Source: a virus
Length of the DNA stretch: 51,801 nt
IMG/VR virus record: IMGVR_UViG_3300025085_000033
Location: 1 to 51,801 of that record
Reading direction: 5' to 3' (one strand)
Position 1 is the stretch's first letter. Every line of letters begins with the position of its first letter. The position numbers were made by a program, and so were the translations under genes. Below the pieces are notes generated by a model that was given only the letters and a program-made list of their open reading frames with translations, had not been told where the DNA came from and made no database searches. Of the stretch, positions 5,346 through 50,066 are shown piece after piece.

Positions 5346-6599
5346 ATGGCAAGTATAAACGACAATATAAGAGGTAAAAAACTATTTAAAGAAGGTAGTT
5401 CTAAACAACTTGCATCTAAAGGTAGTGATGGGGAAGTAACTGTATCTAAAGAGATATCAGATGATTTATCATCTCTAACAGATATAAGTAATGTTTTTAA
5501 TGATGATGGGCTATATCAAGTAAATAGATTTTTATTAAAACAGGTAGAAGACATAAGAAAAGATGTAGAAGAATTACATGCGTTTATAAAGGATGCTTTT
5601 GGTAAAGACTCTTCATCCGCAGCTTCACAGGGTGCTAAAGGAAATACAGGGTCAACTGGCCCACGAGGACCAGCTGGTGCTAACGGTACAAACGGTACTA
5701 ACGGTGATGATGGAGCAACTGGTCCAACAGGACCACAAGGTCCGAAGGGTAACACAGGCTCTACTGGAGGAATTGGACCAAAAGGAAATACAGGCGCAAC
5801 CGGTCCACAAGGACCAAAAGGTGATACAGGCTCGGCTGGCTCTAACGGAACAGACGGTGATGACGGAGCAAAAGGAGACAAAGGTGATACGGGTAGCGTA
5901 GGACCTGCAGGACCGACGGGACCTAAAGGTAACACAGGTTCTGCCGGGGCAACTGGTGGTATTGGCCCAAAAGGTAATACGGGATCAGTGGGCGCAGCTG
6001 GTGCAGATGGTGCAAAAGGAGATCCTGGAGCTACCGGTGGTACAGGACCGCAAGGACCACGAGGATATACTGGTGCAGCCGGAGGAACTGGTCCACAAGG
6101 GCCTACTGGACCCAAGGGTGATACAGGCGCGGCCGGCACTAACGGTACTAATGGAGCTAAAGGAGATAAAGGTAATACTGGTTCAACCGGGCCTCAAGGA
6201 AGTACAGGTGCTCAAGGACCTAAGGGAGACACCGGAGCAGCTGGAGCAGCTGGTGGCACTGGACCTAAGGGTGATACAGGAGCTGCTGGTACAAATGGCA
6301 CAAATGGTAGTCAAGGACCTAAAGGTGATACGGGATCTACAGGCCCTGCTGGACCAAAAGGTAGTACTGGAGCAGCCGGTTCTAATGGAACTAACGGAAG
6401 CCCAGGTGCAAAAGGAGATAAAGGTGATACAGGAAGCACTGGTCCACAAGGTGCAACTGGTCCACAAGGAGCTACCGGTGCAGCAGGAGCAGATGGTAAA
6501 AACGGAAGCGACGCTTCAGTAAGCGGAGCAACAACTAGCTTTTCTATAGGTAAAGTAACGTATACGTTTAAAAACGGACTATTAAATAGTGCAAAGTAA
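5346..6599 (+). CDS. Collagen-like fibre protein
   Basis: 417 residues. The first ~95 residues form a non-repetitive, helix-prone head with a charged segment (QVEDIRKDVEELHAFIKDAF) that could trimerise. From about residue 96 to 390 the sequence is uninterrupted Gly-X-Y triplets, with frequent GPQGPKG, GDTG and GNTG units, predicted to form a collagen-type triple helix. A short C-terminal cap (SFSIGKVTYTFKNGLLNSAK) may seed folding. Collagen-like stalks are known in phage tail fibres. The gene follows the fibre gene by 9 bases. The opposite strand is also open through the repeat, an effect of Gly/Pro codon bias rather than a gene. Confidence 0.9.
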   Translation: MASINDNIRGKKLFKEGSSKQLASKGSDGEVTVSKEISDDLSSLTDISNVFNDDGLYQVNRFLLKQVEDIRKDVEELHAFIKDAFGKDSSSAASQGAKGNTGSTGPRGPAGANGTNGTNGDDGATGPTGPQGPKGNTGSTGGIGPKGNTGATGPQGPKGDTGSAGSNGTDGDDGAKGDKGDTGSVGPAGPTGPKGNTGSAGATGGIGPKGNTGSVGAAGADGAKGDPGATGGTGPQGPRGYTGAAGGTGPQGPTGPKGDTGAAGTNGTNGAKGDKGNTGSTGPQGSTGAQGPKGDTGAAGAAGGTGPKGDTGAAGTNGTNGSQGPKGDTGSTGPAGPKGSTGAAGSNGTNGSPGAKGDKGDTGSTGPQGATGPQGATGAAGADGKNGSDASVSGATTSFSIGKVTYTFKNGLLNSAK

Positions 6600-7832: not shown

Positions 7833-9386
7833 ATGTCAGACAAAATAGTTAAAAATCTTAGCTTCGGTAAAGAGGCTAAGGAAGAGGTTTTTAATGGTAT
7901 AGACAAATTAGCAAAGGCAGTTAGTTCAACATTAGGAGCTGGCGGAAGTTGTGTTTTGTTAGAAGATCAATTAGGAAACCCTACAATAACAAAAGATGGA
8001 GTTACAGTAGCTGAAAGCGTGGTATTAAGAAACCCTGTAGAAAACTTAGGTTGCAACTTATTAAAGCAAGCTGCAAAAAAAACTGTAAAAGAAGCGGGTG
8101 ATGGTACCACCACAGCGACTGTTTTAGCTCACTCTATATTAAAAGAAGCATATAAAGTTTCTGATAAAATAAACAGTAGAGATCTAAAAGATGGAATAAA
8201 TAGCGCAGTTGATAAGGTTATTAATTATTTAATAAATATATCAAAACCTGTTAAAGGTAACATGATAAATCAAATTGCTACAATATCCACTAATAACGAT
8301 AAAAACCTTGGCGAAATAATAGGCAAAGCTTTTAAATCAGTTAACAACACTGGTGTAGTAATGATGGAGCAATCTGACTCTGGTGAAACAGAGTTAGAAA
8401 CAATAGAAGGATCACAATATTTTAAAGGATTAACTAGCACTCATTTTGTTACTAATAAAATTAAAAAAACAGCTGAACTAAACAATCCTCTTGTTTTATT
8501 AATAGAGAATGCAGTTGACAGTATTAGACAAATACAATCTGTTTTAGAGCATGTTATTAAAAATAATAAACAATTACTTATAATAGCAGATCTTAGCAAC
8601 GAGGTTTTATCCGCGCTTGCAATGAACAAAACAAAAGGCAATATAAAGGTAAATGTCATAGAAGCTCCTATATATGGAACTAATAGAAAACAAACTTTTG
8701 ATGATATTGCTTTGTTAACAGGTGCTACACTAATAAATGAAGATTTAGGCGATGATATGGATCTTATAGAACTTGAGCATTTAGGAAGTTGTTTAAAATC
8801 AATAACAAGTGAAACTGAAACTATATTGCAATTTAAACAACCAAACAAAGATTGTTTAAGTATTATAAATGATATAAAGAAAAAGCTTTTAACATGTAAA
8901 ATACCTGACCAGGTTGTTAGTCTAGAAAAAAGACTAGCGATGTTATCTTCTAAAATATCAGTTGTTAAGGTTGGAGCTAACTCTGAAATAGAGTTAAAAG
9001 AAAAAATGGATAGAGTTGAAGACGCTATCTGTGCTACGAAAGCCGCTGTAAAAGAAGGTATTGTTCCTGGAGGTGGTGTTGCTTTGTTAAATGCTTCACT
9101 TTATTTAAAAAACACTAATGAAGCTGAAAACGTTTTAAAAGAAGCTATTATCGCACCATATAAAACAATATTAAGCAACGCTGGGTTAGAACTAGAATTT
9201 TCAAAAAAAGAAGGTTTTGGCTTAGATGTGGTTACGGGAAATATGGTAAAAATGACTGACAATGGTATTATTGATCCATTATTAGTTACAAAAAGCGCTC
9301 TTAAAAACGCGGCTTCTGTGGCAACTACAATATTATCTACAAATTGTGTAATTAATAATTTAAGAATAGATGAAGGCAATAGGTAG
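7833..9386 (+). CDS. groEL: Phage GroEL-like chaperonin
   Basis: 517 residues, somewhat shorter than bacterial GroEL (~545). It aligns by eye over the whole length: STLGAGGS (GroEL TLGPKGR), TITKDGVTV with D55, GDGTTTATVLA with D90, an apical region, RVEDAICATKAAVKEG with D397 (the position of the ATP-hydrolysing Asp398 in E. coli), and PGGGVALL at 412. The key ATPase residues are therefore kept, while the TLGPKG loop lost its Pro-Lys and the C-terminal GGM tail is missing. It is expected to form an ATP-driven folding ring, probably for phage virion proteins. The stop overlaps the co-chaperonin start by 17 bases, so the two are translated together. Confidence 0.95.
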   Translation: MSDKIVKNLSFGKEAKEEVFNGIDKLAKAVSSTLGAGGSCVLLEDQLGNPTITKDGVTVAESVVLRNPVENLGCNLLKQAAKKTVKEAGDGTTTATVLAHSILKEAYKVSDKINSRDLKDGINSAVDKVINYLINISKPVKGNMINQIATISTNNDKNLGEIIGKAFKSVNNTGVVMMEQSDSGETELETIEGSQYFKGLTSTHFVTNKIKKTAELNNPLVLLIENAVDSIRQIQSVLEHVIKNNKQLLIIADLSNEVLSALAMNKTKGNIKVNVIEAPIYGTNRKQTFDDIALLTGATLINEDLGDDMDLIELEHLGSCLKSITSETETILQFKQPNKDCLSIINDIKKKLLTCKIPDQVVSLEKRLAMLSSKISVVKVGANSEIELKEKMDRVEDAICATKAAVKEGIVPGGGVALLNASLYLKNTNEAENVLKEAIIAPYKTILSNAGLELEFSKKEGFGLDVVTGNMVKMTDNGIIDPLLVTKSALKNAASVATTILSTNCVINNLRIDEGNR

Positions 9387-9630
9387 AAACTTAGTTATTA
9401 ATATTGAAAAAGAAGGTACAACAAAAACAAAAGGCGGACTATTGTTATCTGAAAATCAAAAAGAAGATTTAAGATATAGAAAAGCCAACGTTGTATCAGT
9501 GGGTGAAGAAGTTGCAGGTATTAAGAAAAATGATACTATATATTTTGATAGACATGCTGGTCATAAAATAGAATTTAATAAAAATACATATCACGTTATA
9601 AAATCGCAAGACGTGGTCGTTGTTGTATGA
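9370..9630 (+). CDS. groES: GroES-like co-chaperonin
   Basis: 86 residues, close to GroES length (97). The order of elements fits GroES: an N-terminal strand (AIGRNLVINIEKEG), a mobile loop with TKTKGGLLLSE where GGLLL matches the GroEL-binding GGIVL tripeptide, a VVSVGEEV strand, KKNDTIYFDRHAG, and a closing HVIKSQDVVVVV. It should cap the ring made by the overlapping chaperonin gene. It starts inside the end of the groEL-like gene (17-base overlap) and its TGA overlaps the next ATG (ATGA), so all three genes appear translationally coupled. Confidence 0.9.
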   Translation: MKAIGRNLVINIEKEGTTKTKGGLLLSENQKEDLRYRKANVVSVGEEVAGIKKNDTIYFDRHAGHKIEFNKNTYHVIKSQDVVVVV

Positions 9631-16937: not shown

Positions 16938-17154
16938 TATAAGAAAAATTAGCATTGGGTCAGATTATAAAAACGATGCAATGCACTACGCTGTAGGGCA
17001 ACAAGTTTATGGTGGTCATGAAATATCACACATAATCTTAGATGAAAAAGATAATTCTTACAATATTCATATTAAAAAACAAGACGAGGTTTTACCGTGG
17101 AAGAAATTTAATTCTAACATGGCAATATCAGTTGAGTACGACTTGCAATATTAA
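16927..17154 (+). CDS. Small hypothetical protein
   Basis: 75 residues, beta-rich (YAVGQQVYGGHEISHIILDE, then SYNIHIKKQDEVLPWKKF). It overlaps the previous gene by 11 bases and the next by one base (TAATG), so the three genes are translationally linked. No family or catalytic motif recognised. Confidence 0.5.
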   Translation: MSSNIRKISIGSDYKNDAMHYAVGQQVYGGHEISHIILDEKDNSYNIHIKKQDEVLPWKKFNSNMAISVEYDLQY

Positions 17155-17759
17155 TGAAAAGTTTATATGACTTTATTGTAAAACCAATAGGAGATAAATA
17201 CAACAATTTAGTAGATATTGAAGGTAAACAATTAATTGTAAATACAAAAATTGAAAACTGGAAGTTTGTAAATAGACTAGCCATAGTTGTAGAGACACCA
17301 ATTGCTTTTTCAACACCAATAAATAAAGGTGACTTAATTATTATACATCAAAATGTATTTAGAACTTTTTACGACATTAAAGGTAAAAAGAAAAAAAGTA
17401 GATCTTACTTTAATAATGATTATTACTTTTGTGCCGCTGATCAAATATATTTATACAAAAACAATAAAGATTGGCAAACTATAAACGATAGATGTTTTGT
17501 GTCACCTATAAAAAGCAATGACAATCTAACGGTTGATAAAGAACAAAACCTTATAGGTATATTAAAATACGGTAATAAGTCCTTAGAAGCGCTTAAAATA
17601 AACCCTGGAGACCTTGTTGGTTATACGCCTAATGGAGAATGGGAGTTTATTGTAGAAGACAAACGACTTTATTGTATGAAATCTAATGATATTGTAATTA
17701 AATATGAATACCAAGGAAACGAAGAAGAATATAATCCAAGCTGGGCAAATAGCAGTTGA
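17154..17759 (+). CDS. Tandem GroES-fold (co-chaperonin-like) protein
   Basis: 201 residues, not a plain GroES but apparently two GroES-like folds in one chain. Half 1 opens FIVKPIG (7-13) and has INKGDLIIIHQNVFR (56-70); half 2 opens CFVSPIK (114-120) and has LIGILKYGNK (133-142), then KINPGDLVGYTPNGEWEFIV (148-167) and KRLYCMKSNDIVI. The order KPI strand, G-x-(V/I)L strand, GD-(L/I)(I/V) strand, xxY-x-M-x-x-x-DI ending is that of GroES. A Lys-rich loop (KGKKKKSR, 77-83) is inserted in half 1. The T4 gp31 precedent shows phages use such proteins for capsid folding. It lies just upstream of packaging and head genes. The assignment is by pattern and internal duplication; a partner for the groEL-like ring at 7833 is inferred. 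Confidence 0.55.
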   Translation: MKSLYDFIVKPIGDKYNNLVDIEGKQLIVNTKIENWKFVNRLAIVVETPIAFSTPINKGDLIIIHQNVFRTFYDIKGKKKKSRSYFNNDYYFCAADQIYLYKNNKDWQTINDRCFVSPIKSNDNLTVDKEQNLIGILKYGNKSLEALKINPGDLVGYTPNGEWEFIVEDKRLYCMKSNDIVIKYEYQGNEEEYNPSWANSS

Positions 17760-17979
17760 AGAATTAATAAAAGTGGCTAAAGAAGCTATTGTTGATTCAG
17801 GAGATGACATTACAGCCGACAGACTTAAAAACGCGGCAGCTACTAAAAAGCTGGCTATATTTGATGCTTTTGAAATACTTAGTCGTATTGAGGACGAAGA
17901 AAGTTTGTTAAATGAAAAACCTAAAAAAGTAAAAGAAGAAAGAACTTTTAAAGGTTTTGCTGAAGGAAGATCAAGTTAA
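17704..17979 (+). CDS. Small protein upstream of terminase, possible small terminase subunit
   Basis: 91 residues, all-helical, acidic in the middle. It overlaps the tandem GroES-like gene by 56 bases and its TAA shares its last base with the ATG of the large terminase gene. The position directly before terL and the helical pattern (GQIAVEELIKVAKEAIVD, LKNAAATKKLAIFDAFEILS) would suit a small terminase subunit, which recognises phage DNA, but no helix-turn-helix is convincing. Start chosen at the only nearby ATG (17704). Confidence 0.5.
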   Translation: MNTKETKKNIIQAGQIAVEELIKVAKEAIVDSGDDITADRLKNAAATKKLAIFDAFEILSRIEDEESLLNEKPKKVKEERTFKGFAEGRSS

Positions 17980-20192
17980 TGTATAATCAATTATTATATA
18001 AAGTCTTAAAAGACCATGTAAAACCCAAAGTTATTAAAAGACTAAATAGGTATAATAAATGGGAATATGGGTACAATGAGGAGCACGATGTCGTTGTTAT
18101 TAGCAAAGATGGAACAATAGGTGAAATATACGAAATACAAAACTTAAAAATAGCTCTACCTGAATCAAAGGAAGTACATAGCTTTAAAACTGATAAATGG
18201 GAATACACTGAATATCCAAAAGAATTAAAAAAAATAAAATCAGTATTTGATTGGAAACAATATCCAGTTGATTTTAAAGAAAAATGGTATAACTACATAG
18301 ATATAGAATTTGAAAGAAGAGAAAAAGGTTTTTGGTATTATAACAAGGGTATTGCTACTTATATCACTGGCACTCATTACATGTACCTGCAATGGTCCAA
18401 AATTGATGTTGGGCAGCCAGATTTTAGGGAATCAAACAGATTATTCTATATATTCTGGGAAGCTTGCAAAGCAGACGAAAGATGTTATGGAATGTGTTAT
18501 CTTAAAAACCGTAGATCAGGATTTTCTTTCATGTCCTCAGCTGAATCGGTCAATATGGCAACAATATCCTCAGACTCACGGTTTGGCATATTGTCTAAAT
18601 CTGGCCCCGATGCTAAAAAAATGTTCACGGATAAAGTTGTACCGATATCAGTTAACTACCCGTTCTTTTTCAAACCAATACAAGACGGAATGGATAGACC
18701 AAAGACCGAGCTTGCTTATAGAGTTCCAGCGTCTAAATTTACAAGAAGAAAACTTGATACAAATGAAACAGTTGAAGAAATAACAGGTCTTGACACAACA
18801 ATTGATTGGAAAAATACAGGTGATAACTCTTATGATGGTGAAAAGCTAAAATTATTAGTTCACGATGAAAGTGGTAAATGGGAAAAACCTAATAATATAC
18901 TTAATAACTGGAGAGTTACAAAAACAACATTAAGACTAGGTGGAAGAATTATAGGTAAATGTATGATGGGTTCTACTTCAAATGCCTTAGACAAGGGTGG
19001 TAGTAATTTTAAAAAACTATACTATGATTCAAACGTTGAAGAAAGAAACGCCAATGGAGAGACTCGCTCAGGACTATATTCTCTGTTCGTACCTATGGAA
19101 TGGAACTACGAAGGATACATTGATTCTTATGGAATACCTGTGTTTGAAACTCCAGAAAAAGAAACTTACGGTCCTCACGGAAATAAAATAAAGATAGGCG
19201 TAATAGAGTATTGGCAAAATGAAGTTGATGGATTAAAGAAAGATCAAGACGGTTTAAATGAATTTTATCGTCAGTTTCCAAGAACAGAGCAACACGCTTT
19301 TAGAGATGAAGCTAAACAGTCTTTATTTAATTTAACAAAAATATATGAGCAAATTGATTACAATCAAGATGCTAGAAGTGAAACTTTAGTAACAAAAGGC
19401 TCTTTTCAATGGCAGAATGGTATAAAAGACACTAGCGTGTTATTCGTTCCAAATAAAAATGGTAGATTTAATATAACTTGGGTTCCACCATTTGATTTAC
19501 AAAATAGAATTATTATTAAAAATGGAATTAAATATCCTGGAAATGAACACTGTGGTGCATTTGGTTGTGATCCTTACGATATATCAGGTACTGTTGATTC
19601 TAGAGGTTCTAACGGATCACTTCACGGATTAACTAAGTTTTCAATGGAAGACGTGCCTAATAGTTTGTTTTTTTTAGAATATATAGCAAGACCTCAAACA
19701 GCTGAAATATTTTTTGAAGATGTACTAATGGCGTGTGTATTTTACGGTATGCCATTATTAGCAGAAAATAATAAGCCAAGATTACTATATCACTTTAAAA
19801 GAAGAGGTTATAGAGGATACAGTATGAATAGACCTGATAAGGTTTATATTAAACTTTCAATAACAGAAAGAGAAATAGGTGGAATACCTAATTCTAGTCA
19901 AGACATAAAGCAAGCTCACGCGGCCGCTATAGAAACTTATATAGAAAACAATGTGGGTAATTTAGGGGAAAAATACGGTGATGTTTATTTTCAAAGAACA
20001 CTGGAAGACTGGGCAACTTTTGATATTAATAACAGAACAAAACATGATGCTTCTATTAGTTCAGGATTAGCTCTTATGGCTTGTAATAAAAATTTATATA
20101 CTCCAGTTTTTAAAAGAAAATTAGAACAAAAACCTTTAGGGTTTAAAAAGTATGATAATAAAGGATTTAGTTCAAAAATAATAAATAAATGA
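17979..20192 (+). CDS. terL: Terminase large subunit
   Basis: 737 residues, motor ATPase plus nuclease that pumps DNA into the prohead. Walker A is of the deviant type in LKNRRSGFSFM (175-185), lacking the canonical GKT as in crAss-like terminases; the arginines likely replace the P-loop lysine. Walker B and catalytic acid are LLVHDE (292-297, D296-E297), followed by CMMGSTSNALDKGG as the coupling motif. The RNase H-like nuclease domain begins at FGCDPYD with D531, and a late TKHDASISS may give the last metal-binding Asp. It overlaps the portal gene by 4 bases. The ATP-binding variant and size fit the Bacteroidota podovirus group. Confidence 0.9.
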   Translation: MYNQLLYKVLKDHVKPKVIKRLNRYNKWEYGYNEEHDVVVISKDGTIGEIYEIQNLKIALPESKEVHSFKTDKWEYTEYPKELKKIKSVFDWKQYPVDFKEKWYNYIDIEFERREKGFWYYNKGIATYITGTHYMYLQWSKIDVGQPDFRESNRLFYIFWEACKADERCYGMCYLKNRRSGFSFMSSAESVNMATISSDSRFGILSKSGPDAKKMFTDKVVPISVNYPFFFKPIQDGMDRPKTELAYRVPASKFTRRKLDTNETVEEITGLDTTIDWKNTGDNSYDGEKLKLLVHDESGKWEKPNNILNNWRVTKTTLRLGGRIIGKCMMGSTSNALDKGGSNFKKLYYDSNVEERNANGETRSGLYSLFVPMEWNYEGYIDSYGIPVFETPEKETYGPHGNKIKIGVIEYWQNEVDGLKKDQDGLNEFYRQFPRTEQHAFRDEAKQSLFNLTKIYEQIDYNQDARSETLVTKGSFQWQNGIKDTSVLFVPNKNGRFNITWVPPFDLQNRIIIKNGIKYPGNEHCGAFGCDPYDISGTVDSRGSNGSLHGLTKFSMEDVPNSLFFLEYIARPQTAEIFFEDVLMACVFYGMPLLAENNKPRLLYHFKRRGYRGYSMNRPDKVYIKLSITEREIGGIPNSSQDIKQAHAAAIETYIENNVGNLGEKYGDVYFQRTLEDWATFDINNRTKHDASISSGLALMACNKNLYTPVFKRKLEQKPLGFKKYDNKGFSSKIINK

Positions 20193-22603
20193 TTTATAGC
20201 AATTACGTAGGTTCGTTTCCTAGTCAAGTAGTATCTGATGAAGAAAAGCAAAGTTATGATTACGGTTATGCCGTGGGACGAGCTATTGAAGGAGAATGGT
20301 TCTCTGGAGATAGAGGTGGTTTAGGCAATAGATATCAGAATAGTTGGTTGAATTTTCATAGATTAAGACTTTATGCTAGAGGAGAACAACCTGTACAAAA
20401 ATATAAAGATGAATTAGCTGTAAATGGAGATTTATCTTATTTAAATTTAGACTGGAAGCCAGTTCCTATTGTTCCTAAGTTTGTGGATATAATTGTAAAT
20501 GGAATGTCTCAAAAAATATTTGACATTAAAGCATTTGCACAAGATCCTGAATCTTTAAAACAAAGAACAAAGTATGCTGATGCTATAATGAGAGATATGT
20601 ATGCTAAGGAAATGATACAAGCAACAAATGAGGCAACTGGTATGAATTTCTTTAATACAAACGACCCTAACAATATACCTGAATCTCAGCAAGAGTTAGA
20701 TTTGCACATGCAACTTAGTTACAAACAATCTATAGAAATAGCTGAAGAAGAAGCAATAGAAAATGTTTTAGCTTTTAATAAATATGATTTAATTAAAAAA
20801 AGGTTAATACAAGATTTAACTATAATAGGTATAAGCGCTGTTAAAACTGATTTTAATTTAGCTAATGGTGTTACTATAAACTATGTAGATCCTGCTAATT
20901 TAGTTTACTCTTACACTGAAGATCCTAATTTTGATGACATATATTATGCTGGAGAAGTTAAATCTATAAGTCTAGTAGAATTAAAAAAGCAATTTCCTGG
21001 TTTATCAGATGAAGAATTAAAGAAAATAGAAAAATTTCCTGGTGATGCTAATTATACTAGAAATTTCTATGCTCAACAAGATTCTTATAATCAAGTTCAA
21101 GTATTGTACTTTGAATATAAAACTTATAGCAATCAAGTTTTTAAAATAAAACAAACAGACCAAGGATTAGAAAAAGCTCTAGAAAAACCAGATACTTTTA
21201 ATCCGCAACCAAATGATAATTTTGAAAGAGTAGGTAGAAGTATAGAAGTTTTATACACTGGTGCTAAAATATTAGGTCATGAAATGATGTTGGATTGGAG
21301 ATTGTCAGAAAATATGACTAGACCTAATTCTAATGTTACTAAAGTTAACATGAATTATTCTATATGTGCTCCTAGAATATACAAAGGTATGATAGAGTCT
21401 ACAGTTAGTAGAATAACAGGTTTTGCTGACATGATTCAATTAACACATTTAAAGCTCCAACAAGTTTTATCAAGAATGGTTCCAGATGGCGTTTTTGTAG
21501 ATGTAGACGGTTTAGCTGAAGTAGATTTAGGAAATGGAACAAACTACAATGCTCAAGAGGCATTGAACATGTATTTTCAAACAGGTTCTATAGTAGGTAG
21601 ATCTATGACTCAGGATGGTGATCTAAATAGAGCCAAAGTTCCAATTCAAGAATTACAAACATCTTCAGGAGGTCAAAAAATAGCAAGTCTAATACAGACA
21701 TATCAATATTATTTGCAAATGATAAGAGATGTGACTGGCCTAAATGAAGCCACAGACGCTAGCACTCCAGATAAGGATGCTTTAGTTGGTTTGCAGAAGC
21801 TTGCAGCGGCAAATTCAAATACAGCGTTAAGACACGTTATGCAAGGTGGTTTGTTTTTAACTTTAAGAACATGTGAAAATATAGCTTTAAGGATAGCTGA
21901 CGCATTAAGTTATCCACTAACTAGAGCTGCTTTAATAGATTCTATATCTTCTTATAACACTGGAACATTAGAAGAATTACAAGATAGAAACTTGCAAGAT
22001 TTTGGAATATTTTTAGAACTAGAACCAGATGAAGAAGCTAAAGCTCAATTAGAGCAAAACATACAAATAGCTTTACAAAGTGGCGGAATAGATTTAGATG
22101 ATGCCATAGATATTCGACAGGTTAAAAACATAAAATTAGCAAATGCTCTTTTAAAACAGAAAAGAAAAGAAAAAGCAAAACAAGATCAAGCTAATCAAAT
22201 GGCTAATATTCAAGCTCAAGCTCAAGCAAATTCTCAAGCTGCTCAACAGGCAATTGAAGCTGAAATGCAGAAACAACAAGCTTTAGCTGAAACTGAAATA
22301 CAAATAGAAACATCTAAAATGCAACTTGAAATTAAAAAAATGTTGCAAGAGGCCGAACTCAAAAAAGTTTTAATGGCGGAAGAGTTTCAATACAATATGC
22401 AGCTAGCGCAAATAAAATCTAGTGCAGAAACAAAAAAAGAAGGAGAAATTGAGAACAGAAAAGATAATAGAATAAAAATGCAAGGTACTCAAGAATCTCA
22501 ATTAATAAATCAAAGACAAAACAACACATTGCCTCAAGACTTTGAATCCGCTGGATTTGACAATTTAGGAGGTTTTGGATTAGAGCAATTTGATCCTAGA
22601 TAA
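20189..22603 (+). CDS. Portal protein (crAss-like type)
   Basis: 804 residues. It follows terL and precedes scaffold and capsid, the standard portal position. Recognisable elements are RLYARGEQPVQKYKDEL near residue 65, then LNLDWKPVPIVPKFVDIIV, a signature I recall from portals of crAss-like phages, a central wing/stem region, and a long Gln/Ala/Glu-rich helix (about 650-760) forming an extended C-terminal barrel or coiled coil. Twelve copies would form the vertex ring through which DNA enters and leaves. The ATG overlaps the terL stop by 4 bases. Confidence 0.85.
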   Translation: MIYSNYVGSFPSQVVSDEEKQSYDYGYAVGRAIEGEWFSGDRGGLGNRYQNSWLNFHRLRLYARGEQPVQKYKDELAVNGDLSYLNLDWKPVPIVPKFVDIIVNGMSQKIFDIKAFAQDPESLKQRTKYADAIMRDMYAKEMIQATNEATGMNFFNTNDPNNIPESQQELDLHMQLSYKQSIEIAEEEAIENVLAFNKYDLIKKRLIQDLTIIGISAVKTDFNLANGVTINYVDPANLVYSYTEDPNFDDIYYAGEVKSISLVELKKQFPGLSDEELKKIEKFPGDANYTRNFYAQQDSYNQVQVLYFEYKTYSNQVFKIKQTDQGLEKALEKPDTFNPQPNDNFERVGRSIEVLYTGAKILGHEMMLDWRLSENMTRPNSNVTKVNMNYSICAPRIYKGMIESTVSRITGFADMIQLTHLKLQQVLSRMVPDGVFVDVDGLAEVDLGNGTNYNAQEALNMYFQTGSIVGRSMTQDGDLNRAKVPIQELQTSSGGQKIASLIQTYQYYLQMIRDVTGLNEATDASTPDKDALVGLQKLAAANSNTALRHVMQGGLFLTLRTCENIALRIADALSYPLTRAALIDSISSYNTGTLEELQDRNLQDFGIFLELEPDEEAKAQLEQNIQIALQSGGIDLDDAIDIRQVKNIKLANALLKQKRKEKAKQDQANQMANIQAQAQANSQAAQQAIEAEMQKQQALAETEIQIETSKMQLEIKKMLQEAELKKVLMAEEFQYNMQLAQIKSSAETKKEGEIENRKDNRIKMQGTQESQLINQRQNNTLPQDFESAGFDNLGGFGLEQFDPR

Positions 22604-23852: not shown

Positions 23853-25313
23853 ATGGCTTTAAATCCGCAATTTGGAGGATTAGTTCCTTCACAAGCGCAA
23901 GAAATCTTAGCAAATAATTATCTACAGTGGACTAATAATGGTGGTGCTGCAGGTATTCCAAATGACTTTGTAGATTTCGCGCAACAATACTTACCTGAAG
24001 TATACGAACAAGAAGTAGAGCGTTATGGAAACAGAACGTTATCTGGTTTTTTACGTATGGTAGGGGCAGAAATGCCAATGACTTCTGATCAAGTAATTTG
24101 GTCTGAACAAAATAGATTACACATCGCTTATGATGGCTGTACATTTACATCTGCTACAGGTGTTGTAGTGGTTAATCCTGCTGCTAATGCAGATATTCAA
24201 AATGTTATTTCAGTAGGTGCTACTGTTGTAATTATGGATAACTTTGGTGCTGAAGCAAAATGTTATGTTTCTGCTTCTGTTCCAGGCGCTGGTGCTGGTG
24301 CAACTATTACAGTACAACCTTACACAGCTGCTAACTTAGCAGGAGCTGGATTAGTAGGTGCTGTAAAAGTATTTGTATACGGTTCTGAATATGCTAAAGG
24401 ATCTTCAACTCCTAATTTTAGCGCTGCTACTCCTGCGGGATATGTAAGTGTTGAACCTCAATTTACACAATTTTCAAACTCACCAATCATAATTAGAAAC
24501 AAATACGTTGTAAATGGTTCTGATATGGCTCAAATCGGTTGGGTAGAAGTTGCAACTGAAGACGGTACATCTGGATACTTATGGTATTTAAAAGCTGAAT
24601 CTGAAACTCGTTTACGTTTTGAAGATTACTTAGAAATGTCAATGGTTGAAGGTGAACTTGCTGCTGCAAACTCTGCTGCATTAGCTGCTGCTCAAAAAGG
24701 TACACAAGGTCTTTTTGCGGCTATTCAAGATAGAGGTAATGTACAGACTGGATTTACAGCTGCTGCTGGAATTGATGCTTTTGATGCAATACTTAAGAAC
24801 TTAGATACTCAAGGAGCTATTGAAGAAAACATGTTATTCTTACAGAGACAAACTGCTTTGGATTTTGATGATATGTTAGCTTCTATTTCTGGTGGATACG
24901 CTGGAGGTACTGCTTTTGGGTTGTTTGAGAATTCTGAAGAAATGGCTTTAAACTTAGGCTTTAGCGGTTTCCGTAGAGGATCTTATGATTTCTACAAAAC
25001 AGATTGGAAATACCTAAATGACGCTTCTACAAGAGGCGCTATTTCTGGCCCTTCTTCAATTGAAGGTGTATTAATTCCTGCTGGAACTTCTACAGTTTAC
25101 GATCAAATTTTAGGTACAAATATTAGAAGACCATTCTTACACGTGCGTTATAGAGCTTCTCAAGGAGATGACAGACGTATGAAGTCTTGGTTAACTGGTT
25201 CTGCTGGTGGTGCATTCACTTCTGATCTAGATGCTATGGAAGTTAACTTCCTGTCTGAAAGATGTTTAGTGACACAAGCTGCTAACAACTTTGTATTGTT
25301 CAAGGGATTATAA
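23853..25313 (+). CDS. Major capsid protein
   Basis: 486 residues. It lies downstream of the scaffold, has a strong terminator behind it, and its codon use is visibly richer in GCT/GCA/GGT than its neighbours, all expected for the most abundant virion protein. A helical N-arm (QEILANNYLQWTNNGGAAGI) leads to LRMVGAEMPMTSDQVIWSEQ, then a Gly/Ala/Val-rich segment (about 90-200) that looks like an insertion domain, and a C-terminal half (ETRLRFEDYLEMSMVEGEL, RFxHVRY-like FLHVRYRASQ, VNFLSERCLVTQAANNFVLF) consistent with an HK97 fold of the crAss-like type. Assignment rests on context and recalled family likeness. Confidence 0.85.
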   Translation: MALNPQFGGLVPSQAQEILANNYLQWTNNGGAAGIPNDFVDFAQQYLPEVYEQEVERYGNRTLSGFLRMVGAEMPMTSDQVIWSEQNRLHIAYDGCTFTSATGVVVVNPAANADIQNVISVGATVVIMDNFGAEAKCYVSASVPGAGAGATITVQPYTAANLAGAGLVGAVKVFVYGSEYAKGSSTPNFSAATPAGYVSVEPQFTQFSNSPIIIRNKYVVNGSDMAQIGWVEVATEDGTSGYLWYLKAESETRLRFEDYLEMSMVEGELAAANSAALAAAQKGTQGLFAAIQDRGNVQTGFTAAAGIDAFDAILKNLDTQGAIEENMLFLQRQTALDFDDMLASISGGYAGGTAFGLFENSEEMALNLGFSGFRRGSYDFYKTDWKYLNDASTRGAISGPSSIEGVLIPAGTSTVYDQILGTNIRRPFLHVRYRASQGDDRRMKSWLTGSAGGAFTSDLDAMEVNFLSERCLVTQAANNFVLFKGL

Positions 25314-28455: not shown

Positions 28456-31400
28456 ATGGCAGAAGCTAAAAATAGTTTCATTAAGTCTAAAATGAATAAG
28501 GACTTAGATGAAAGATTAATTCCAAATAACGAATATAGAGACGCCTTAAACATGAGTGTTTCTAGATCAGAAAGTAGCGATGTAGGAGCCTTAGAAGCAA
28601 TATTAGGTAATATAACAACTGATACTACACCAATTAAAGGTCATAAAATAATAGGTACTTTTGCTGATGAAGCTAATAGTTTAATTTATTATTTTAGAAC
28701 AAACTGGAATCAGGTTGCTAGAGCTAACTCAAGTGCTATTTGTACTATAGGTGTTTTAAATACTTTAACTAATTCAGATTTAACAATAGTTAATGGTTAT
28801 TTTTTAAATTTTTCTCAATCAGATTTAATGAATGGAATTAGTCTTATTGAGAATCAACTGTTCTTCACAGACAATAGAAATCAACCTAGAAAAATAAATG
28901 TTTCAATAGCAACTTCAAATAATAGTTATTATTTTAATGAAGATCAAATATCTGTAGCAAAATTTGCACCGTATTCCCCTCCGTCTTTTTTAAATCTAAG
29001 GGCAGATGCTGCTAGACTTGTTGCCGCTAACGACTACGTAGAGTCACTACTACCTTCAACAATGTCTGACGCTCAAGATCCTCCTATAGTTGAGGTTGGT
29101 GTTTATAAGTTTTCTCAAAAAAATTTAGATGTAAAAGTATATAGAAATGGAGATTTAATTCCAGAAGTTATATCTTTAGTTGACTGGGATTTAGCTAATC
29201 AAAACGAAACTGGTGCTTGGTGTTATTATTCTAATTATAATGGAAACGGTGTAACATATGGAGTTTTATACAACAAATGGGCTGTTTTAGATCCAAGAGG
29301 TCTAGCACCAGTGGGCTATTATATACCTTCTCTAACTGAGTGGCAATCTATTATCACTAGCGCAGGTGGATCTGCTTTAGCAGATTCATGGAAAAGTCCT
29401 CTTTTATGGGAACCAACTGGAGCCGAAGGAAATGACATACTTGGAACCAATGTGTTACCTGCTGGTAGAAGAAGAAATGTTTCAACTGGAGGCGCTGATG
29501 CTTTTGGTTTTATTGATTTAACAGCTAAGACAAGGTTTTGGACTAGTGATCCTATATTTCCTGCTGGAGATCCTAATGCAGGAAAAGCTTCATACATTGA
29601 ATTTAATGATACTAGTAACATTTTAGAGGGCGTAGAGTTTCCGTCAAATGGTTTCTCTGTTAGAGTAGTAAGAGAGCAAAACTACACCGGCTGGAATGGT
29701 GATCCTGATTATTTATCTGAGAGATTTGTTAAATTTTCTTATAGATTTAAATTTGATGACAATGAGTACTCTATAATAGCTCCTTTTAGTCAAGATGTTT
29801 TTATTCCATTTCAAGAAGGTCAGTTTGTTAATGATGATGAAAACAAAGCTTTTACATCTACTGTTGTTGAGTTTATGCAAAATTCAATAAACAATGCTGT
29901 TTTAAATATAGAACTACCATGTATTGATATAATAAACAAATACAAGGTAAAAGCTATAGATATAATATTTAAGCAATCAGACATGCAGGCCTATCAAGTT
30001 ATAGAGACTGTTAGAGTTGACTCTAATTTTATTGCGGCTTTAAATTATACTAATATTTTTCAATATTCATACGAATCAACTATTCCTATAAAAACTCTTG
30101 ATTCTACACAGTCAACTAGGGTTTTTGATAAAGTTCCTGTTTTAGCTAGAGCACAAGAAACCGCAGGTAATAGAATTATGTATGGCAATTACTTAGAAGG
30201 ATACAGTGCTCCAGCTGGTCTAGATTACTATGTAGGTGTTGACAGTAAATCTTTACAACAATTTATAGAGTATCCACAACACTCTGTTAAGCAAAATAGA
30301 AATTATCAAGTAGGTATAATTTTATCTGATAAATACGGAAGACAAACTGATGTTGTACTTTCTAATCAAGACGGAACATTGGATCCTCTTGGAAATCCTC
30401 AACCAGGTTCTAATTTTTATTTAGACTATAAAAATGTTGGCTTTGCGAATGAATTACCGTTATGGACTGGTGATACTTTAGCTTTGTATTATTTACAGCA
30501 AATACCAGAAGGAGATATTGGTATTTCTGGGTATCCAGGCGCTTATGCTGTTGGAAATTATTACGAAGTAGATGGAGATTCTGTAGCGCCAGGCGCTTTA
30601 TATCCTTACTTTAATAGCTTAGGAACAATTTGTATAGAAGCAACAGCTAATCAATCTGTTTTTAATACACAGATACTTTATACTGACGCAATAGCCGCGG
30701 CTAATACTTTAAATGTTCTTATAGACACTGGAAACGGTTGGATTTTACAAGAACCTTCTACATATTCAGTAACTCAAATTACTGCCGGAACCTCAACAGT
30801 TATAACTTTTCTACCAACTACAACAGCTCAAACTACTGGTAACCCTACTGGAGTTGTTCAGAGTCAAACAGTTTTTCTTACCCAAGTTTCTGGCAACATA
30901 CAAGTAGGTTCTACTGTAACAATACCTAGTCAAGGAAGTGTTACTGTAACTAGCGTAGATATTAATCAAGCTTCGTCTAGTGGTCAAATAAGTATTAGCT
31001 CACCAAGAAGTATTCCAGACGGTACTGAAATTAATTTTAGTCCAGGTTTAACGGTTGGTAGTGTGGTTAAAGTGGAGCTTTTATATACAACAAATAATTA
31101 CTATAAATACACGACAGGAGCCGCGTCTAGCACATTAAGACCTTTGTTTCCTGACTGGCCAACAACATATGCTCAATACTATGCTGTAGGTAAAAAATTA
31201 AAAGGACTTTATATAGATTACACTGAAATAGAATCATTAACTCCTATAAGCGATAGTAATGGTGTTAGAGCAGTTGAGTTTTTTACGCAAGAAGAAGTAA
31301 ATACTAATTATTTGTTTGATAATACTCCAGGTAGTGCTCCAGAGCCAACTAAGTCTGACAAAAATTCATATGCTACTTATGATATAAATGTAAATGGTTT

Positions 31401-33849
31401 TTACACCTACAAATCAGCAGTTAAACAGCAGCAGCAAGATTATTATAACGTATATTTACCTGGCATAGTAAATGGTTACCCAATAAATGACGAGGTAAAA
31501 GAGCAGAATGAAGTTGCGACTGTAACTTTAATCGGAGATAATATAAATAAAATACCTAGAAATTTAGAAAACGTAGGTCCTATTCAAAACTCTTTCACGA
31601 GTGATGTGATGATGTGGCCTAGAGTTACTAATATAGACGGAATTCAGTCTACAGTTTCACCAATTGATTATCAAACATTTAATACTCAGGTTGATCCAGA
31701 ATCTTCAGCTGACGATGTTGTTATTGTTGGTGGATTAGATGATTTATTTCCTGATTTAACAAGAAACCTCACTAACGGAAACCCTTCACCAGGCACTCAA
31801 AATCCAACTGGCTTTGTTAATATTTATTCTGTTTATAACTTTGACAATAAACCATTCGTTGCTCAAGTAGCAACTCAAAAAGGTGTAGGTCTAGGAGAGG
31901 CCTCTTATACAGTTCCAGCTATAACAGATGGTAATTTTCCTTATCCTCCTCCAATGGGACTAGCGGTTTATGAAACAGCTCCTTTTTTGTCTCCTATAGA
32001 GATATTTTATGAGTCCTCAACTTCTACTTTAATTTCTGAGTTAAACTTAGATATACAAAACACAGATGTGAATATAACTGGTATATCAGATTTTAATATT
32101 AATTTTGAAGAAATAATGTCATCCAATACAATTATAACTAGTGATTTTTATCCTTTAGCAAGCGGTCAAATACTGCAAACTACAACTTTAGCTGGCTGGG
32201 TAGCTTACGCTTATGACTCAAATAATCAACTTGACACTACTGTTTTAGTGGGTGATAATACCGGTGGAGGACAAAATAGATTTGCAATAACACAAGGTAC
32301 TAATTTAGGTAGTTATGTAATTCAAACTACAGATAGATTTTATGCTGGATCACAATTAGAACAATCTGTATACGTTGCCACTAGAGGTAAATTTTTATTT
32401 ACTTTAACTTTTCAACAAGAAGATGGCGTACAAGTAGATCAATCTTTAACTATACAATTAGAAAACTCTATACCTCAAGTTATTAATCCTGTGTTTAACA
32501 CAACAGCGGTTACAACAAATAGTCTATCGATAGTTCCTCTTGACAGTAGTAATACAACACTATCTCCAAAAGGAACAAATGGATCAGCTAGAAAACTTTC
32601 TTTAGGTGATTCTAGTCCTACTGGAAATATATTTTTATCTAGCACCCAGCAGTCAGGTTGGCAAATAGCTAAAATACAAAAAATTTCCCAAGCAACAGGT
32701 AATGTAACAATAATACCCGGGGACGCTACAACAAATCCTACAGGATTAACTATATCAGACATGCTGGCGGTAAATCAAAATGGAACTACTGGAGATTGGC
32801 CAGTTTTTCAAGATGGTCAAGCGGGTTCTTTTCAAGGTGATTTTGTTTCTTTTCAATTAGCATCAGCCCCAAACGCTAGTGGTGGTTCTCCAGGTCCAAT
32901 GAATACAGCTAATCAAGATTACACTATTTGGATGAGTTTAAAAGATAGTTTGCAAAGCTACAATACAGGGGTAGATGGTTCTTTTGCTGCAAAGATAACA
33001 TATAGCGTGGGTGTTACTACTTTCTTTGGACAGGTGTTAATTAGTGCATATGATAATGTGTCAAATCCTCCAAATAATCCATTATTTTACACGGCTACTG
33101 GCTCTAATCCACCTAACTATATTAATCCAGGACCGGGTCTTTTTAATGCTGATGGAAGTCAAGATGCTTATTATCAAATACAAAACTGGACAGATCAAAT
33201 AGTTTATATATATGTTTATGCCGCAATTACTGGTGGAACTATAGCAAACCAACAAAGTAAAATATCGTCCAACACGACATTGGCCCGTTTTGGAGATAAT
33301 ACAACTCAAGGAACTGATTCTGCTGGAAACGGATATTTCGTCTCTGCTGGCTGGAGTCAAGCTGTATCACAATTAACTAATTCTAGTAACGGCTATAGTG
33401 CTGGTCCTTATCAATGGAGATATGTGGGGCAGTTATCTCCATTTACTGCAGCGGCAGGCGGTATGACTCAAGCAAATTTTGACCTAGCAATCTCATCAGG
33501 GTTAACACCTGGTCAAAGTCACACACCGGCTTCAGGTTCAGAGTTTCCAGCTTATGATTTTTCTGGTTGTGCCTTAGTTAACTTAGGTTTAACATTAATT
33601 CCACCAGCTGCCACGGGCTCAAGCGGAAAAGGTGTCTATAATTTAGCTTGGAATAACACGCCTCCAGCAAGCATGCCTGACGCACAGAATCCACCAGCTC
33701 CTCCAGGAACGGTTTATCCTATTTCTCAATCTCCTACGATAAATGAATTTGAGCCACCAATGTACGTTGGTAGTGATGGAAGTAGAGGTAAATTTCCAAC
33801 AGTAGACATGGGAAGTAGCACTGGTCAATTTGACGGTCCTGCAAACTAG
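28456..33849 (+). CDS. Giant tail hub protein with inserted FISUMP domain
   Basis: 1797 residues. The N-terminus (MNKDLDERLIPNNEYRDALN followed by SDVGALEAILGN) is a signature I recall from the large tail hub/stabiliser of crAss-like phages, and NDDENKAFTSTVVEF and KYKVKAIDIIFKQSDMQAYQ continue it. Residues about 210-407 are a FISUMP-type domain (Fibrobacter major paralogous, C-type-lectin-related): NLDVKVYRNGDLIP, GAWCYYSNYNGN, TYGVLYNKWAV, GYYIPSLTEWQSII, LPAGRRRN, FWTSDP, and the closing NGFSVRVVRE. This sits between a phage hub segment and NGDPDYLSERFVKFSYRF. The rest is beta-rich with immunoglobulin-like stretches. It should form the tail core and carry a surface-binding domain. Confidence 0.75.
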   Translation: MAEAKNSFIKSKMNKDLDERLIPNNEYRDALNMSVSRSESSDVGALEAILGNITTDTTPIKGHKIIGTFADEANSLIYYFRTNWNQVARANSSAICTIGVLNTLTNSDLTIVNGYFLNFSQSDLMNGISLIENQLFFTDNRNQPRKINVSIATSNNSYYFNEDQISVAKFAPYSPPSFLNLRADAARLVAANDYVESLLPSTMSDAQDPPIVEVGVYKFSQKNLDVKVYRNGDLIPEVISLVDWDLANQNETGAWCYYSNYNGNGVTYGVLYNKWAVLDPRGLAPVGYYIPSLTEWQSIITSAGGSALADSWKSPLLWEPTGAEGNDILGTNVLPAGRRRNVSTGGADAFGFIDLTAKTRFWTSDPIFPAGDPNAGKASYIEFNDTSNILEGVEFPSNGFSVRVVREQNYTGWNGDPDYLSERFVKFSYRFKFDDNEYSIIAPFSQDVFIPFQEGQFVNDDENKAFTSTVVEFMQNSINNAVLNIELPCIDIINKYKVKAIDIIFKQSDMQAYQVIETVRVDSNFIAALNYTNIFQYSYESTIPIKTLDSTQSTRVFDKVPVLARAQETAGNRIMYGNYLEGYSAPAGLDYYVGVDSKSLQQFIEYPQHSVKQNRNYQVGIILSDKYGRQTDVVLSNQDGTLDPLGNPQPGSNFYLDYKNVGFANELPLWTGDTLALYYLQQIPEGDIGISGYPGAYAVGNYYEVDGDSVAPGALYPYFNSLGTICIEATANQSVFNTQILYTDAIAAANTLNVLIDTGNGWILQEPSTYSVTQITAGTSTVITFLPTTTAQTTGNPTGVVQSQTVFLTQVSGNIQVGSTVTIPSQGSVTVTSVDINQASSSGQISISSPRSIPDGTEINFSPGLTVGSVVKVELLYTTNNYYKYTTGAASSTLRPLFPDWPTTYAQYYAVGKKLKGLYIDYTEIESLTPISDSNGVRAVEFFTQEEVNTNYLFDNTPGSAPEPTKSDKNSYATYDINVNGFYTYKSAVKQQQQDYYNVYLPGIVNGYPINDEVKEQNEVATVTLIGDNINKIPRNLENVGPIQNSFTSDVMMWPRVTNIDGIQSTVSPIDYQTFNTQVDPESSADDVVIVGGLDDLFPDLTRNLTNGNPSPGTQNPTGFVNIYSVYNFDNKPFVAQVATQKGVGLGEASYTVPAITDGNFPYPPPMGLAVYETAPFLSPIEIFYESSTSTLISELNLDIQNTDVNITGISDFNINFEEIMSSNTIITSDFYPLASGQILQTTTLAGWVAYAYDSNNQLDTTVLVGDNTGGGQNRFAITQGTNLGSYVIQTTDRFYAGSQLEQSVYVATRGKFLFTLTFQQEDGVQVDQSLTIQLENSIPQVINPVFNTTAVTTNSLSIVPLDSSNTTLSPKGTNGSARKLSLGDSSPTGNIFLSSTQQSGWQIAKIQKISQATGNVTIIPGDATTNPTGLTISDMLAVNQNGTTGDWPVFQDGQAGSFQGDFVSFQLASAPNASGGSPGPMNTANQDYTIWMSLKDSLQSYNTGVDGSFAAKITYSVGVTTFFGQVLISAYDNVSNPPNNPLFYTATGSNPPNYINPGPGLFNADGSQDAYYQIQNWTDQIVYIYVYAAITGGTIANQQSKISSNTTLARFGDNTTQGTDSAGNGYFVSAGWSQAVSQLTNSSNGYSAGPYQWRYVGQLSPFTAAAGGMTQANFDLAISSGLTPGQSHTPASGSEFPAYDFSGCALVNLGLTLIPPAATGSSGKGVYNLAWNNTPPASMPDAQNPPAPPGTVYPISQSPTINEFEPPMYVGSDGSRGKFPTVDMGSSTGQFDGPAN

Positions 33850-38278: not shown

Positions 38279-41200
38279 ATGGAAATATATATTTTACCCA
38301 ATGGACAGGAAGTCGACATGACTAATGTTCCTACTCAACAAAAACTTATTTGGTTATCAGAAAATCCAGGCGCAGAATTAAAAAAAGTAGAGGGTGCTGC
38401 AGAGAGTGCAAGTGCGACGCCCAATATGTTTACAGCACAAACAAATGGGGATTTAGTTTCGGAAAATTCTTTTTCGGTATCTCCAGGTAGTTTAGATATA
38501 AATAATTTTGAGTATTTTAATCCTGAAGGTAACGAAGATGTTGAAAGTTATTCTCAAGATGTAAAAAAAGCTTTAGGAAGATACGATTCTGATTCTTTAT
38601 TAAAGAAAGATGAGTTTGGTTTATTTGAAGACCAAAACGTTCAGCTAGCTGTTGACAATGGTTTCATAACGCCAAGAGACCTAAGAGAAGCTGGATATAC
38701 TTATGATACTTATGGTATTTCTTCAATAAATCCTCCTACAAAATCAACAGTAGAAAAAGCTAGAAAAAAAATATCAACGTATCAAAGAAAAAGTGACGAT
38801 TTAATTTCATCTTTTGTTGACTTAGAGAAGCTAAATGAACCTTATATATATAAAGACAATTATCAAGACGATGGTTTTTTATACGAAACCTATGGAGACA
38901 TTGATATAGGTCAATTAGACAATGAAGACTTTGGTGGCTTTATGCAAGAAAAAGGTTATGATAAAGATTTAAAAAGATTCTTTGAGCTAGAAATGGATAA
39001 GAAAAATTATGGAAACTCTTATGAACCAGAACTAGCTTTAGAGCAAAGAAAACTACAATATTTAAACTTATACATGAACGATCAGGTTCAAAGAGATATA
39101 AAACAACAAAAACTAATGTATGAGTTAGATACTGGTGTAAATCCAAATTCTATAGAAAAGTCTTTTAAAATATCTCCTGAAAACATACAACTACAAAACT
39201 ATGAAAAGTACATTAGAAGTGAGTTTCCTTTAATATCAAGCAAGCTTCAGCAAATAGATGAAAAAGATCAAACAGAGTATCAAAAACTTTTAGAATCTGA
39301 TGGAAACATTGGAGCGGGTAAATTTCTTTTAAATGTAGTTGGAAATGGATGGAACGGTCTTTCTAGAGCAATAAGTGAATTTTCAGCATCTACATTTGGT
39401 ATATTGCCTGGAGATTATTTTGAGGGAGTTTCAGAATCCATTAGACAGGCTAATCTTATGGAGGAAATGGGATTAGAAGATTTTGGCTCTTTTTATACTG
39501 GCCCAGGTAGATTTGTGAGTGGAATAGGTAATTCTATAGTAGATAAGGACACAGGTACAAAGTATTTGGTAACAAAGTCTGGTAGAATACTAGATAAAGA
39601 TAGATCGTTAGATGCTACTAATTTTTTAAGCCAACAGAAGGCAGATGAAATAAGAAAAAACGCTAGAATTTATGGAAAAAGAGACAACGCATTTAGCGTG
39701 TTAGGCGCTTTTGACGCTGGCGCTAATGTAGTTGGTGATTTGTTTTTTCAAATAGCACTAACAAGAGGTTTGGGTAATGGTATTAGAGCTGTTGGCGGTT
39801 TTACTAAAGGACTAGGTGTATTAGGTAAAACAAGAGGATTTTTAAAATCTGTTCCTATTTCAAAAAATATGGCTGACGCTATAATAGGGCAAAGTACATT
39901 AGGTTTTTCTAGAGGTTACGAAAAAACTTTATCACAAGCTAGAAAAATGGGTATTAATGACGACGAAGCTTCTGAATTAGCTACCATGGGATCTATACAA
40001 ATGGGTATTTTATACGCTTTAACCGCACCAATAAATCCTAGAGCAAAAGCAACAGATGCTATTTTTGGTAAATTATCAGCAACTAATGTTATGGAAAAAG
40101 CATTAAGAGAGTATACTAAAAAAGGAAAAAAAGGATTTATAGATTATTTTAAAACAGGAAAGCTAGGAACACTTGTTAATTTAGGTGGAGAGGGTTTTAA
40201 AGAAGTTTTTCAAGAAAATGTTCAGCAAATTGGAGAAACATTTGTTGTTAATAAAAACATAAACGAAAGAGCAGGTAAAAAAATAACAAAAGACACTATG
40301 AGTTTGCAAGACTTTATAGACACAACTGTACTTTCGTTTTTCGCAGGCGCAATAATACCAGGTGCTGGTGTTACTTTAAATTTAGCAAAGCAAACAGCTA
40401 GAGATATGCTAGGTATGTCTGCGGTAGATCGTTTTAATAATTTAAGTTATTTATCGTATAAAAAAAATGATGTATCAAAACTCATAGCTAAACAAGTAGA
40501 GCAAGGTATATATACTCAACAAGAGGCTGACATGTTATTAGAAGAAATGAATGCTTTTAATGAAAACATAAACAGAATGCCTCAAGACCTATCAGCAGAT
40601 GCAGCTACTCAAATACTAGGCGATGTTAATGAGGTAGGGAAGCTTAGGCAACAAAGAAAAACAGAAGATCCATCTTTTCATGCTGAAACTGACGCTAGAA
40701 TAAAGGCTTTAGATTCTAAAATACAAAAAACATATTACAACGATATTACTAAAAGAAAATCTGGAGTTATAGCTAAAGCAATAAAAAAGGGTGTTATAAA
40801 AAATGTTTCTTGGAATGAATTTTCATCTACAGACGAAGCTGTTAAGTTTTTAATGGAAGAGTTGGGTTATAGCAAAGCAAAAGCAATAAGCACTGCTTCT
40901 AAATATGGAGCAACGGTGCAGAGAGATGGTAAGCAGTTTATAATAATAAATAATGAAAAATCTGCTAAAGACGGAAAAATAACTGTTAAAGAGCATGAGT
41001 TTTTACACGCTGTTATATATGAAACAATTAAAAACGACCCAGAAGCACAGGCGTTATTAGGTAAATCTTTATTAAGCGAGGTTTTAAAATTGCAAGATAA
41101 AATAGATGCTACTGAATCAGACGCTAAAGCGCTTCCAGATGAATTTTTAAAAGATTTTACTGGTTATGTTACTTTTTACAATAACCTAATAAAAGGTCTT

Positions 41201-46529: not shown

Positions 46530-46567
46530 GAAGGGGATCTCAAACGAGGTCCCCTTCATTGTTTTTA
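46530..46567 (+). terminator. Strong terminator between convergent blocks
   Basis: A 12-bp stem GAAGGGGATCTC / GAGGTCCCCTTC (46530-46541 and 46546-46557, one T-G pair) with the loop AAAC, followed by ATTGTTTTTA. It ends the rightward late operon. The same hairpin, read leftward, follows the nrdA stop but has no U-tract on that side. The T-run overlaps the nrdA stop codon. Confidence 0.92.
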
Positions 46568-49900: not shown

Positions 49901-50066
49901 AAACTTTTATTCCGTATTTATCTTGTATTTCTATTAGTTCTTTATATTTTATTTTACCTCGCGCTTCCCAACTCCACTGCCACCATTTGTCAATTTGACG
50001 CTCGGCATATTTTTGTCTTGCTATCCTTTTCGCTTCGAAAGGATTAACTTTACTGTTTCGTCGCAT
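49893..50066 (-). CDS. Small basic hypothetical protein (57 aa)
   Basis: 57 residues from ATG at 50066, Arg/Lys and Trp rich (MRRNSKVNPFEAKRIARQKY, DKWWQWSWEARGKIKYKELI). Overlaps the upstream endonuclease gene by 46 bases and the 49-residue gene by 8 bases, fitting a tightly coupled operon. No family recognised; a nucleic-acid-binding role is possible from the charge. Confidence 0.5.
   Translation of the reverse strand: MRRNSKVNPFEAKRIARQKYAERQIDKWWQWSWEARGKIKYKELIEIQDKYGIKVYG

Follow-up and report, generated by a model that had tools for sequence, protein, structure and literature searches.

The window analysed here, the whole 51,801 bases of IMG/VR record IMGVR_UViG_3300025085_000033, belongs to a marine phage. 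It codes for a GroEL-like chaperonin, for a GroES-like co-chaperonin whose gene overlaps the end of groEL, and for a further protein which very likely folds as two GroES-like domains in tandem and whose gene stands at the head of the virion module (Table 1).

Table 1. Chaperonin and head genes of the window and the features within them.
Feature	Positions	Strand	Properties or basis
groEL-like chaperonin (Cpn60)	7833-9386	+	517 aa, 55.7 kDa, ATG...TAG
Nucleotide loop TLGAGG (bacteria: TLGPKG)	7929-7946	+	alignment
D55 = E. coli D52 (ATP hydrolysis)	7995-7997	+	alignment
D90 = E. coli D87 (Mg/ATP)	8100-8102	+	alignment
D397 = E. coli D398 (ATP hydrolysis)	9021-9023	+	alignment
groEL end/groES start overlap	9370-9386	+	17 nt
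groES-like co-chaperonin (Cpn10)	9370-9630	+	86 aa, 9.7 kDa, pI 9.4
Mobile-loop tip GGLLL	9433-9447	+	alignment
Shortened roof segment VGEEVAGIKKND	9499-9534	+	alignment
Tandem GroES-like protein, putative co-chaperonin	17154-17759	+	201 aa, 23.5 kDa; PHROG, AlphaFold2, Foldseek
Tandem protein, domain 1	17154-17465	+	
Tandem protein, domain 2	17466-17705	+	
Terminase large subunit	17979-20192	+	PHROG 6681, E 6.5e-163
Portal protein	20189-22603	+	PHROG 6547, E 5.7e-143
Major capsid protein	23853-25313	+	52.0 kDa, pI 4.5; 39% identity to phi38:1 P0003

The GroEL product matches PHROG 5725 (E 5.3e-127) and the Pfam family Cpn60_TCP1 (PF00118, residues 26-508 of 517, E 2.9e-54), and its nearest solved chain is 9rwr, an ancestral Fibrobacteres-Chlorobi-Bacteroidetes GroEL (E 1e-110). 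It is ~40% identical to bacterial chains across residues 7-508, and the homology is full-length, covering the equatorial, intermediate and apical domains. Residue numbers were assigned by alignment to E. coli GroEL (MG1655 b4143). The residues D52, D87 and D398, the GDGTTT motif and the G414-G415 pair are present and invariant in all 21 members of the phage GroEL family, and the position of E. coli P33 is occupied by alanine in every one of them. The protein ends in ...NNLRIDEGNR and lacks the GGM repeat. Such a tail is common in group I chaperonins yet not universal, and since it is not a required feature, group I membership stands despite its loss.

The groES product is assigned by Pfam Cpn10 (PF00166, residues 2-85, E 7.3e-14, 52 bits against a gathering score of 21.1) and by PHROG 3188 (E 9.6e-14). 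Its residues 21-26 read KGGLLL, within a mobile-loop segment 4-5 residues longer than that of bacterial GroES. The GGLLL tip is conserved among the window-like members, and the elemo and Manatee-like members carry SGLYL, SGLVL, TGILL or AGLIL instead. Compared with E. coli, the segment forming the roof of the lid lacks 9 residues, and compared with flavobacterial GroES ~4. The roof of the latter is already short, so the resemblance to T4 gp31 is only partly specific to the phage, and an interpretation of the deletion as purely gp31-like was scaled back. Both genes are under purifying selection, with dN/dS values of 0.05-0.16 for groEL in most close-relative pairs that hold enough synonymous changes to tell, and of 0.15-0.33 for groES among close relatives; the two frames are thus not a product of chance. 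The pair is almost certainly a group I chaperonin pair, and the phage GroEL is very probably a working ATPase chaperonin.

The original prediction had equated D55, D90 and D397 with GroEL 52, 87 and 398 and had described an overlap of 17 bases, a retained GGLLL tip, an altered TLGPKG loop, a lost GGM tail and an intact ATPase core. All of these are borne out, the last as a predicted property to which the fully conserved ATP-pocket positions point. It did not include the tandem co-chaperonin-like gene, the shorter roof of the lid, or the remodelling of the surfaces at which GroEL meets GroES and the opposite ring.

The ATG register of the overlap is kept across the window-like relatives, tandem ATGs giving a 20-nt overlap in some, and groEL-groES with the identical register recurs in ~30 IMG/VR relatives at 62-84% GroEL identity. 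In a promoter scan, sites were no more numerous than in shuffles. Phage records with a GroEL-like protein number 278, and those with a groES resembling that of the window 70, nearly all of them Flavobacterium elemo. This groES lies beside groEL in the 68 elemo records, where it comes immediately after it, and in the Manatee Spring phage, and within ~120 nt of groEL in Maribacter phage Panino; the immuto and Calle phages possess other groEL/groES pairs. All relatives examined have both genes if their record extends to the locus, cultured phages of Flavobacterium and Cellulophaga among them, and the ownership of both chaperonin homologues by some phages has already been published (PMC7185714). 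The pair is thus in itself a known kind, and the earlier statement that phages rarely encode both subunits was an overstatement, the one part of that reading to fall, while its ATPase core, mobile loop and exclusion of a recent host copy remain. What is new is the tandem, Cpn20-like part.

The tandem protein matches PHROG 13932 (co-chaperonin GroES, 200 aa; E 2.6e-24), and its AlphaFold2 model, built from 44 sequences with no templates, has a pLDDT of 81. Among PDB chains, Foldseek ranks 7ekq_R and 7ekq_Q first, followed by GroES/Hsp10 chains; the match to 7ekq_R spans 204 columns (E 9e-5, TM 0.52). The two leading chains are the Cpn20 co-chaperonin of the Chlamydomonas ClpP complex. The leading BFVD matches are likewise co-chaperonins, and T4 gp31 is a weak structural match. 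The single-domain GroES profile, PHROG 3188, detects domain 1 in some relatives (for example in L289 at residues 15-64, with E 3e-6) and domain 2 in others (for example in L101 at residues 108-194, with E 7.5e-7), and the hhalign probability is 92-94% for domain 2 and 8% for domain 1. On these grounds domain 2 is secure, and domain 1 is likely. A PDB profile search with the tandem alignment returned only GroES, at E 0.4. In domain 1 a G-hydrophobic motif (IGGIEFIV, IEGKQLIV) sits in a long and flexible loop, and domain 2 of the window phage has a short loop of ~12 residues between its first strands. Because the mobile loop is not retained in domain 2, the protein is Cpn20-like by its architecture and is not regarded as a member of the Cpn20 family. 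The tandem two-domain co-chaperonin-like fold can be proposed with considerable confidence, and a function as co-chaperonin is moderately probable.

Scans of IMG/VR yielded at least 599 confirmed matches for the tandem protein of the window and 540 for that of the Manatee Spring phage, a set which may overlap the first. An alignment scan for distant tandem relatives gave no usable conserved stretch, and a distant-relative scan with the Panino tandem protein gave no match. Cellulophaga phage phi18:3, not itself a Callevirus, has a 200-residue "chaperonin cpn10" (S0A356) that is a full-length match to the tandem model, and the tandem co-chaperonin may therefore extend to another flavophage family. 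The open-access papers searched contained no earlier description of the tandem architecture or the three-part set.

The tandem gene lies just upstream of the terminase, portal and major capsid protein genes, in an order common to elemo, Panino, phi38:1 and the Manatee Spring phage. The gene for the small terminase often sits upstream of that for the large subunit, and this usual site, together with the short loop of domain 2 in the window phage, would suit a head or packaging component which merely has a GroES-like fold, leaving groEL and groES as the only chaperonin. Such a component is unlikely: phages with the tandem gene all carry groEL and groES when the record is long enough, the top structural matches in both PDB and BFVD are co-chaperonins, and domain 1 keeps its long loop with the G-hydrophobic motif. 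The published core of Pervagoviridae, a proposed flavophage family, includes the portal, structural proteins and a "chaperonin cpn10" in a shared order (PMC8776804), and the "chaperonin cpn10" of that list is probably the tandem gene. The order cpn10-terminase-portal-MCP in the window is identical to that of phi38:1 and elemo.

The three genes are inherited jointly across the whole lineage. Among 20 long window-like records the tandem gene is present in all and groEL in 16, and the four that lack groEL break off on the upstream side of the tandem gene without reaching the site of groEL. In two other sublineages groEL and groES are both present in 16 of 20 records and both absent from four, which are 14-42 kb long. 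No long record among those 20 + 20 contains only one of groEL and groES. The lid gene is always beside or near groEL, and in most members directly behind it. Counts made within 10 kb had suggested tandem genes without groEL and groES; this was discarded when searches of whole records found both at a greater distance in the long ones.

Conservation was scored against the bacterial consensus in the 21 phage family members, and it is distributed very unevenly. All 17 scored ATP-pocket positions agree with the consensus in all 21 members, and the whole protein agrees at 41%. Agreement falls to 37% of cells on the GroES- and substrate-binding face (98% in bacteria), to 21% at the ring-ring contacts (78%) and to 10% at the cage-wall acids (94%). 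With the pocket kept entirely and the outer contacts at 10-37%, selection has preserved the engine while allowing the outer contacts to diverge. Three substitutions on the GroES-binding face, L234->Q, Y203->H and V264->M, are shared by the whole phage family, which fits a private lid. At the ring-ring contacts the helix is cut short near E434, A109 has given way to another residue, and E461, S463 and V464 are not retained, which fits single or separable rings; a single-ring or separating form is accordingly a tentative proposal from residue patterns, somewhat short of being the favoured one. The D83-K327 bridge is lost, and D155-R395 and R197/K-E386 are kept.

These observations are best explained, with moderate confidence, by a private chaperonin of three proteins which folds phage head proteins. 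In such a phage-owned group I system a GroEL ring would act with a GroES lid, translated together with it from the overlapping genes, and with the tandem co-chaperonin. GroEL would bind unfolded head proteins, chiefly the acidic 52 kDa major capsid protein, ATP would lift the apical domains, and the cage would be closed by a lid consisting of the private GroES, of the tandem protein or of the two together. The host GroES would presumably fit this cage poorly, given the changed GroES-binding face. The loss of ring-ring contacts suggests single rings or double rings that readily separate, and the short roof and longer mobile loop would be changes of the sort that enlarge the T4 GroEL-gp31 cage for gp23. 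In T4 gp31 the roof loops are missing and the mobile loop is extended, and the enlarged cage houses the 56 kDa gp23 (PMC6318259). That a single lid should combine Cpn10 and tandem subunits is unlikely on present indications.

The capsid gene was identified by its 39% identity to phi38:1 P0003, which has lysines at 359 and 385, the two positions reported as methylated in the putative major capsid protein of that phage (PMC13288928); an AlphaFold2 model of the window protein had a pLDDT of 42 and was left unused. For phi38:1, a cultured Callevirus with the same kit, peptides of the phage GroEL have been published both from infected cells and from a preparation of virions (PMC13288928). The GroEL of the lineage is thus expressed, and its presence in virions could be carry-over. 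In Callevirus the Cpn10 and GroEL genes sit among replication genes, a location which does not point to capsid folding. The case for a phage head protein as client is evenly poised, and the likeliest client is the 52 kDa major capsid protein.

The phage GroES, the tandem protein or both may alternatively serve chiefly to cap the host GroEL, like T4 gp31, with the phage GroEL as a supplement. T4 and RB49 use the host GroEL alone (PMC9598537), the tandem protein is, by the probable identification above, a listed family core gene (PMC8776804), and the GGLLL tip is still of the bacterial type. This takeover of the host chaperonin is nevertheless rather improbable, since no record beyond cut-off fragments has the lid but no groEL, GroEL is as strictly conserved as the lids, and it has distinctive substitutions fixed on its GroES-binding face. 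More doubtful still is a holdase without a cage, which would prevent aggregation in the manner of phiEL, OBP and AR9 and act perhaps on replication proteins or a lysin. The lost ring-ring contacts are expected of single-ring forms, phiEL functions without encapsulation (PMC7185714), and the Callevirus genes lie in the replication module. Yet the chaperonins of phiEL, OBP and AR9 are reported to need no co-chaperonin (PMC9598537), whereas here groEL is never without its dedicated lid, and the D155-R395 and R197/K-E386 bridges are kept, even though D83-K327 is lost.

A recent copy of a host groESL operon can be rejected with near certainty: the highest bacterial identities are those of Flavobacteriales, as a host copy would have it, but they do not exceed 42% among the loci listed, the phage clade falls outside all sampled bacteria, and the gene order is reversed relative to the bacterial loci. 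The comparison comprised 80 bacterial loci, as listed, whose GroELs are 37-42% identical to that of the window, and a closer cellular relative may exist. These loci contain 77 groES genes, of which 75 precede groEL on its strand, and in the window groEL precedes groES. The earlier claim that the pair is not a recent host copy is upheld by the identities and the trees, and the phylogeny called for at that time gave no placement of GroEL inside a host genus at high identity. In the GroEL tree a branch with support 92/92 separates the window family, elemo, Panino and the Manatee-like phages from the rest, and when Callevirus is added to them the support is 99/97. The inner order is unsure because the branches are long. 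The trees give several separate origins for the GroEL-like proteins of phages.

The elemo (Elemovirus), Panino and Callevirus (phi38:1, Calle) phages share with the window a groEL, a small Cpn10 and a co-chaperonin of ~180-195 residues upstream of the terminase and portal, yet their GroEL is only ~36-40% identical. In Callevirus the small Cpn10 is upstream of groEL with one gene between, and in elemo the groEL-groES pair, whose overlap is 1 nt, is opposite in direction to the head genes. Bacterial GroEL/GroES has in common with the window the full-length homology, the ATP pocket and the mobile-loop tip, and differs in gene order, in the GGM tail, in the TLGPKG loop and in the ring-ring, cage-wall and GroES-face residues, which are changed or lost in the phage. 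The lid of the window resembles T4 gp31 in its reduced roof, longer mobile loop and probable capsid client, though T4 uses the host GroEL and the window phage has its own groEL. The roof reduction, unlike that of gp31, is partly inherited from hosts with short roofs, and no gp31 chain appeared among the sequence matches. The GroEL-like proteins of phiEL, OBP and AR9 are also phage-encoded, some of them single-ring, but their identity to GroEL is ~22-25% and they function without a lid, whereas the window protein is group I-like and has its own.

In outline the three-part set resembles that of the chloroplasts of plants and green algae, in which a Cpn60-type chaperonin is likewise accompanied by a single-domain (Cpn10) and a tandem-domain (Cpn20) co-chaperonin. 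The tandem protein is only 11-13% identical to chloroplast Cpn20, which gives no evidence of common descent, and the latter has mobile loops in both domains, in contrast to the short loop of domain 2 in the window. Tandem-domain co-chaperonins have been described as a peculiarity of chloroplasts and the plant lineage (PMC3542282, PMC5780408). A marine phage lineage with a private, head-dedicated chaperonin of single or separating rings, closed by a chloroplast-like but independently arisen lid of Cpn10 and tandem protein, is in all its parts together an unlikely conjunction. The tandem architecture as a conserved partner of phage GroEL and GroES, encoded by at least 599 contigs of one viral collection, would provide an independent and genetically tractable case for how even-numbered lids sit on seven-fold rings, and would mean that some phages with small genomes (~50-75 kb) depend on their own folding machine and not on that of the host.

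Several additional observations concern other records and genes. The L023 contig has at its start a second, frame-broken version (L295, 412-4018) of the groEL-groES region that it carries at its other end. The two are 86% identical in DNA across 3.6 kb, and the extra one looks less like a true second gene than like a terminal redundancy, rich in errors, left by the assembly. A divergent groEL lies between glycosyltransferase genes, near the portal, in a 43-kb siphovirus-like genome (MW202497.1, L190, 2504-4072), with no groES annotated beside it. In the window, a protein of 417 residues (5346-6599) with several collagen triple-helix repeats (Pfam Collagen, E 4e-42) is probably a fibre, a 1797-residue protein with a Fib_succ_major domain (28456-33849; Pfam E 4e-17) is encoded between virion structural genes, and an ORF of 2458 residues (38279-45655), very large for a 52-kb phage record, has no PHROG match. 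On the minus strand, the large (46565-48286) and small (48783-49751) subunits of a class I ribonucleotide reductase, a Holliday-junction resolvase-like gene (50021-50479) and a MazG-like domain protein (50771-51613) form the start of the replication module.
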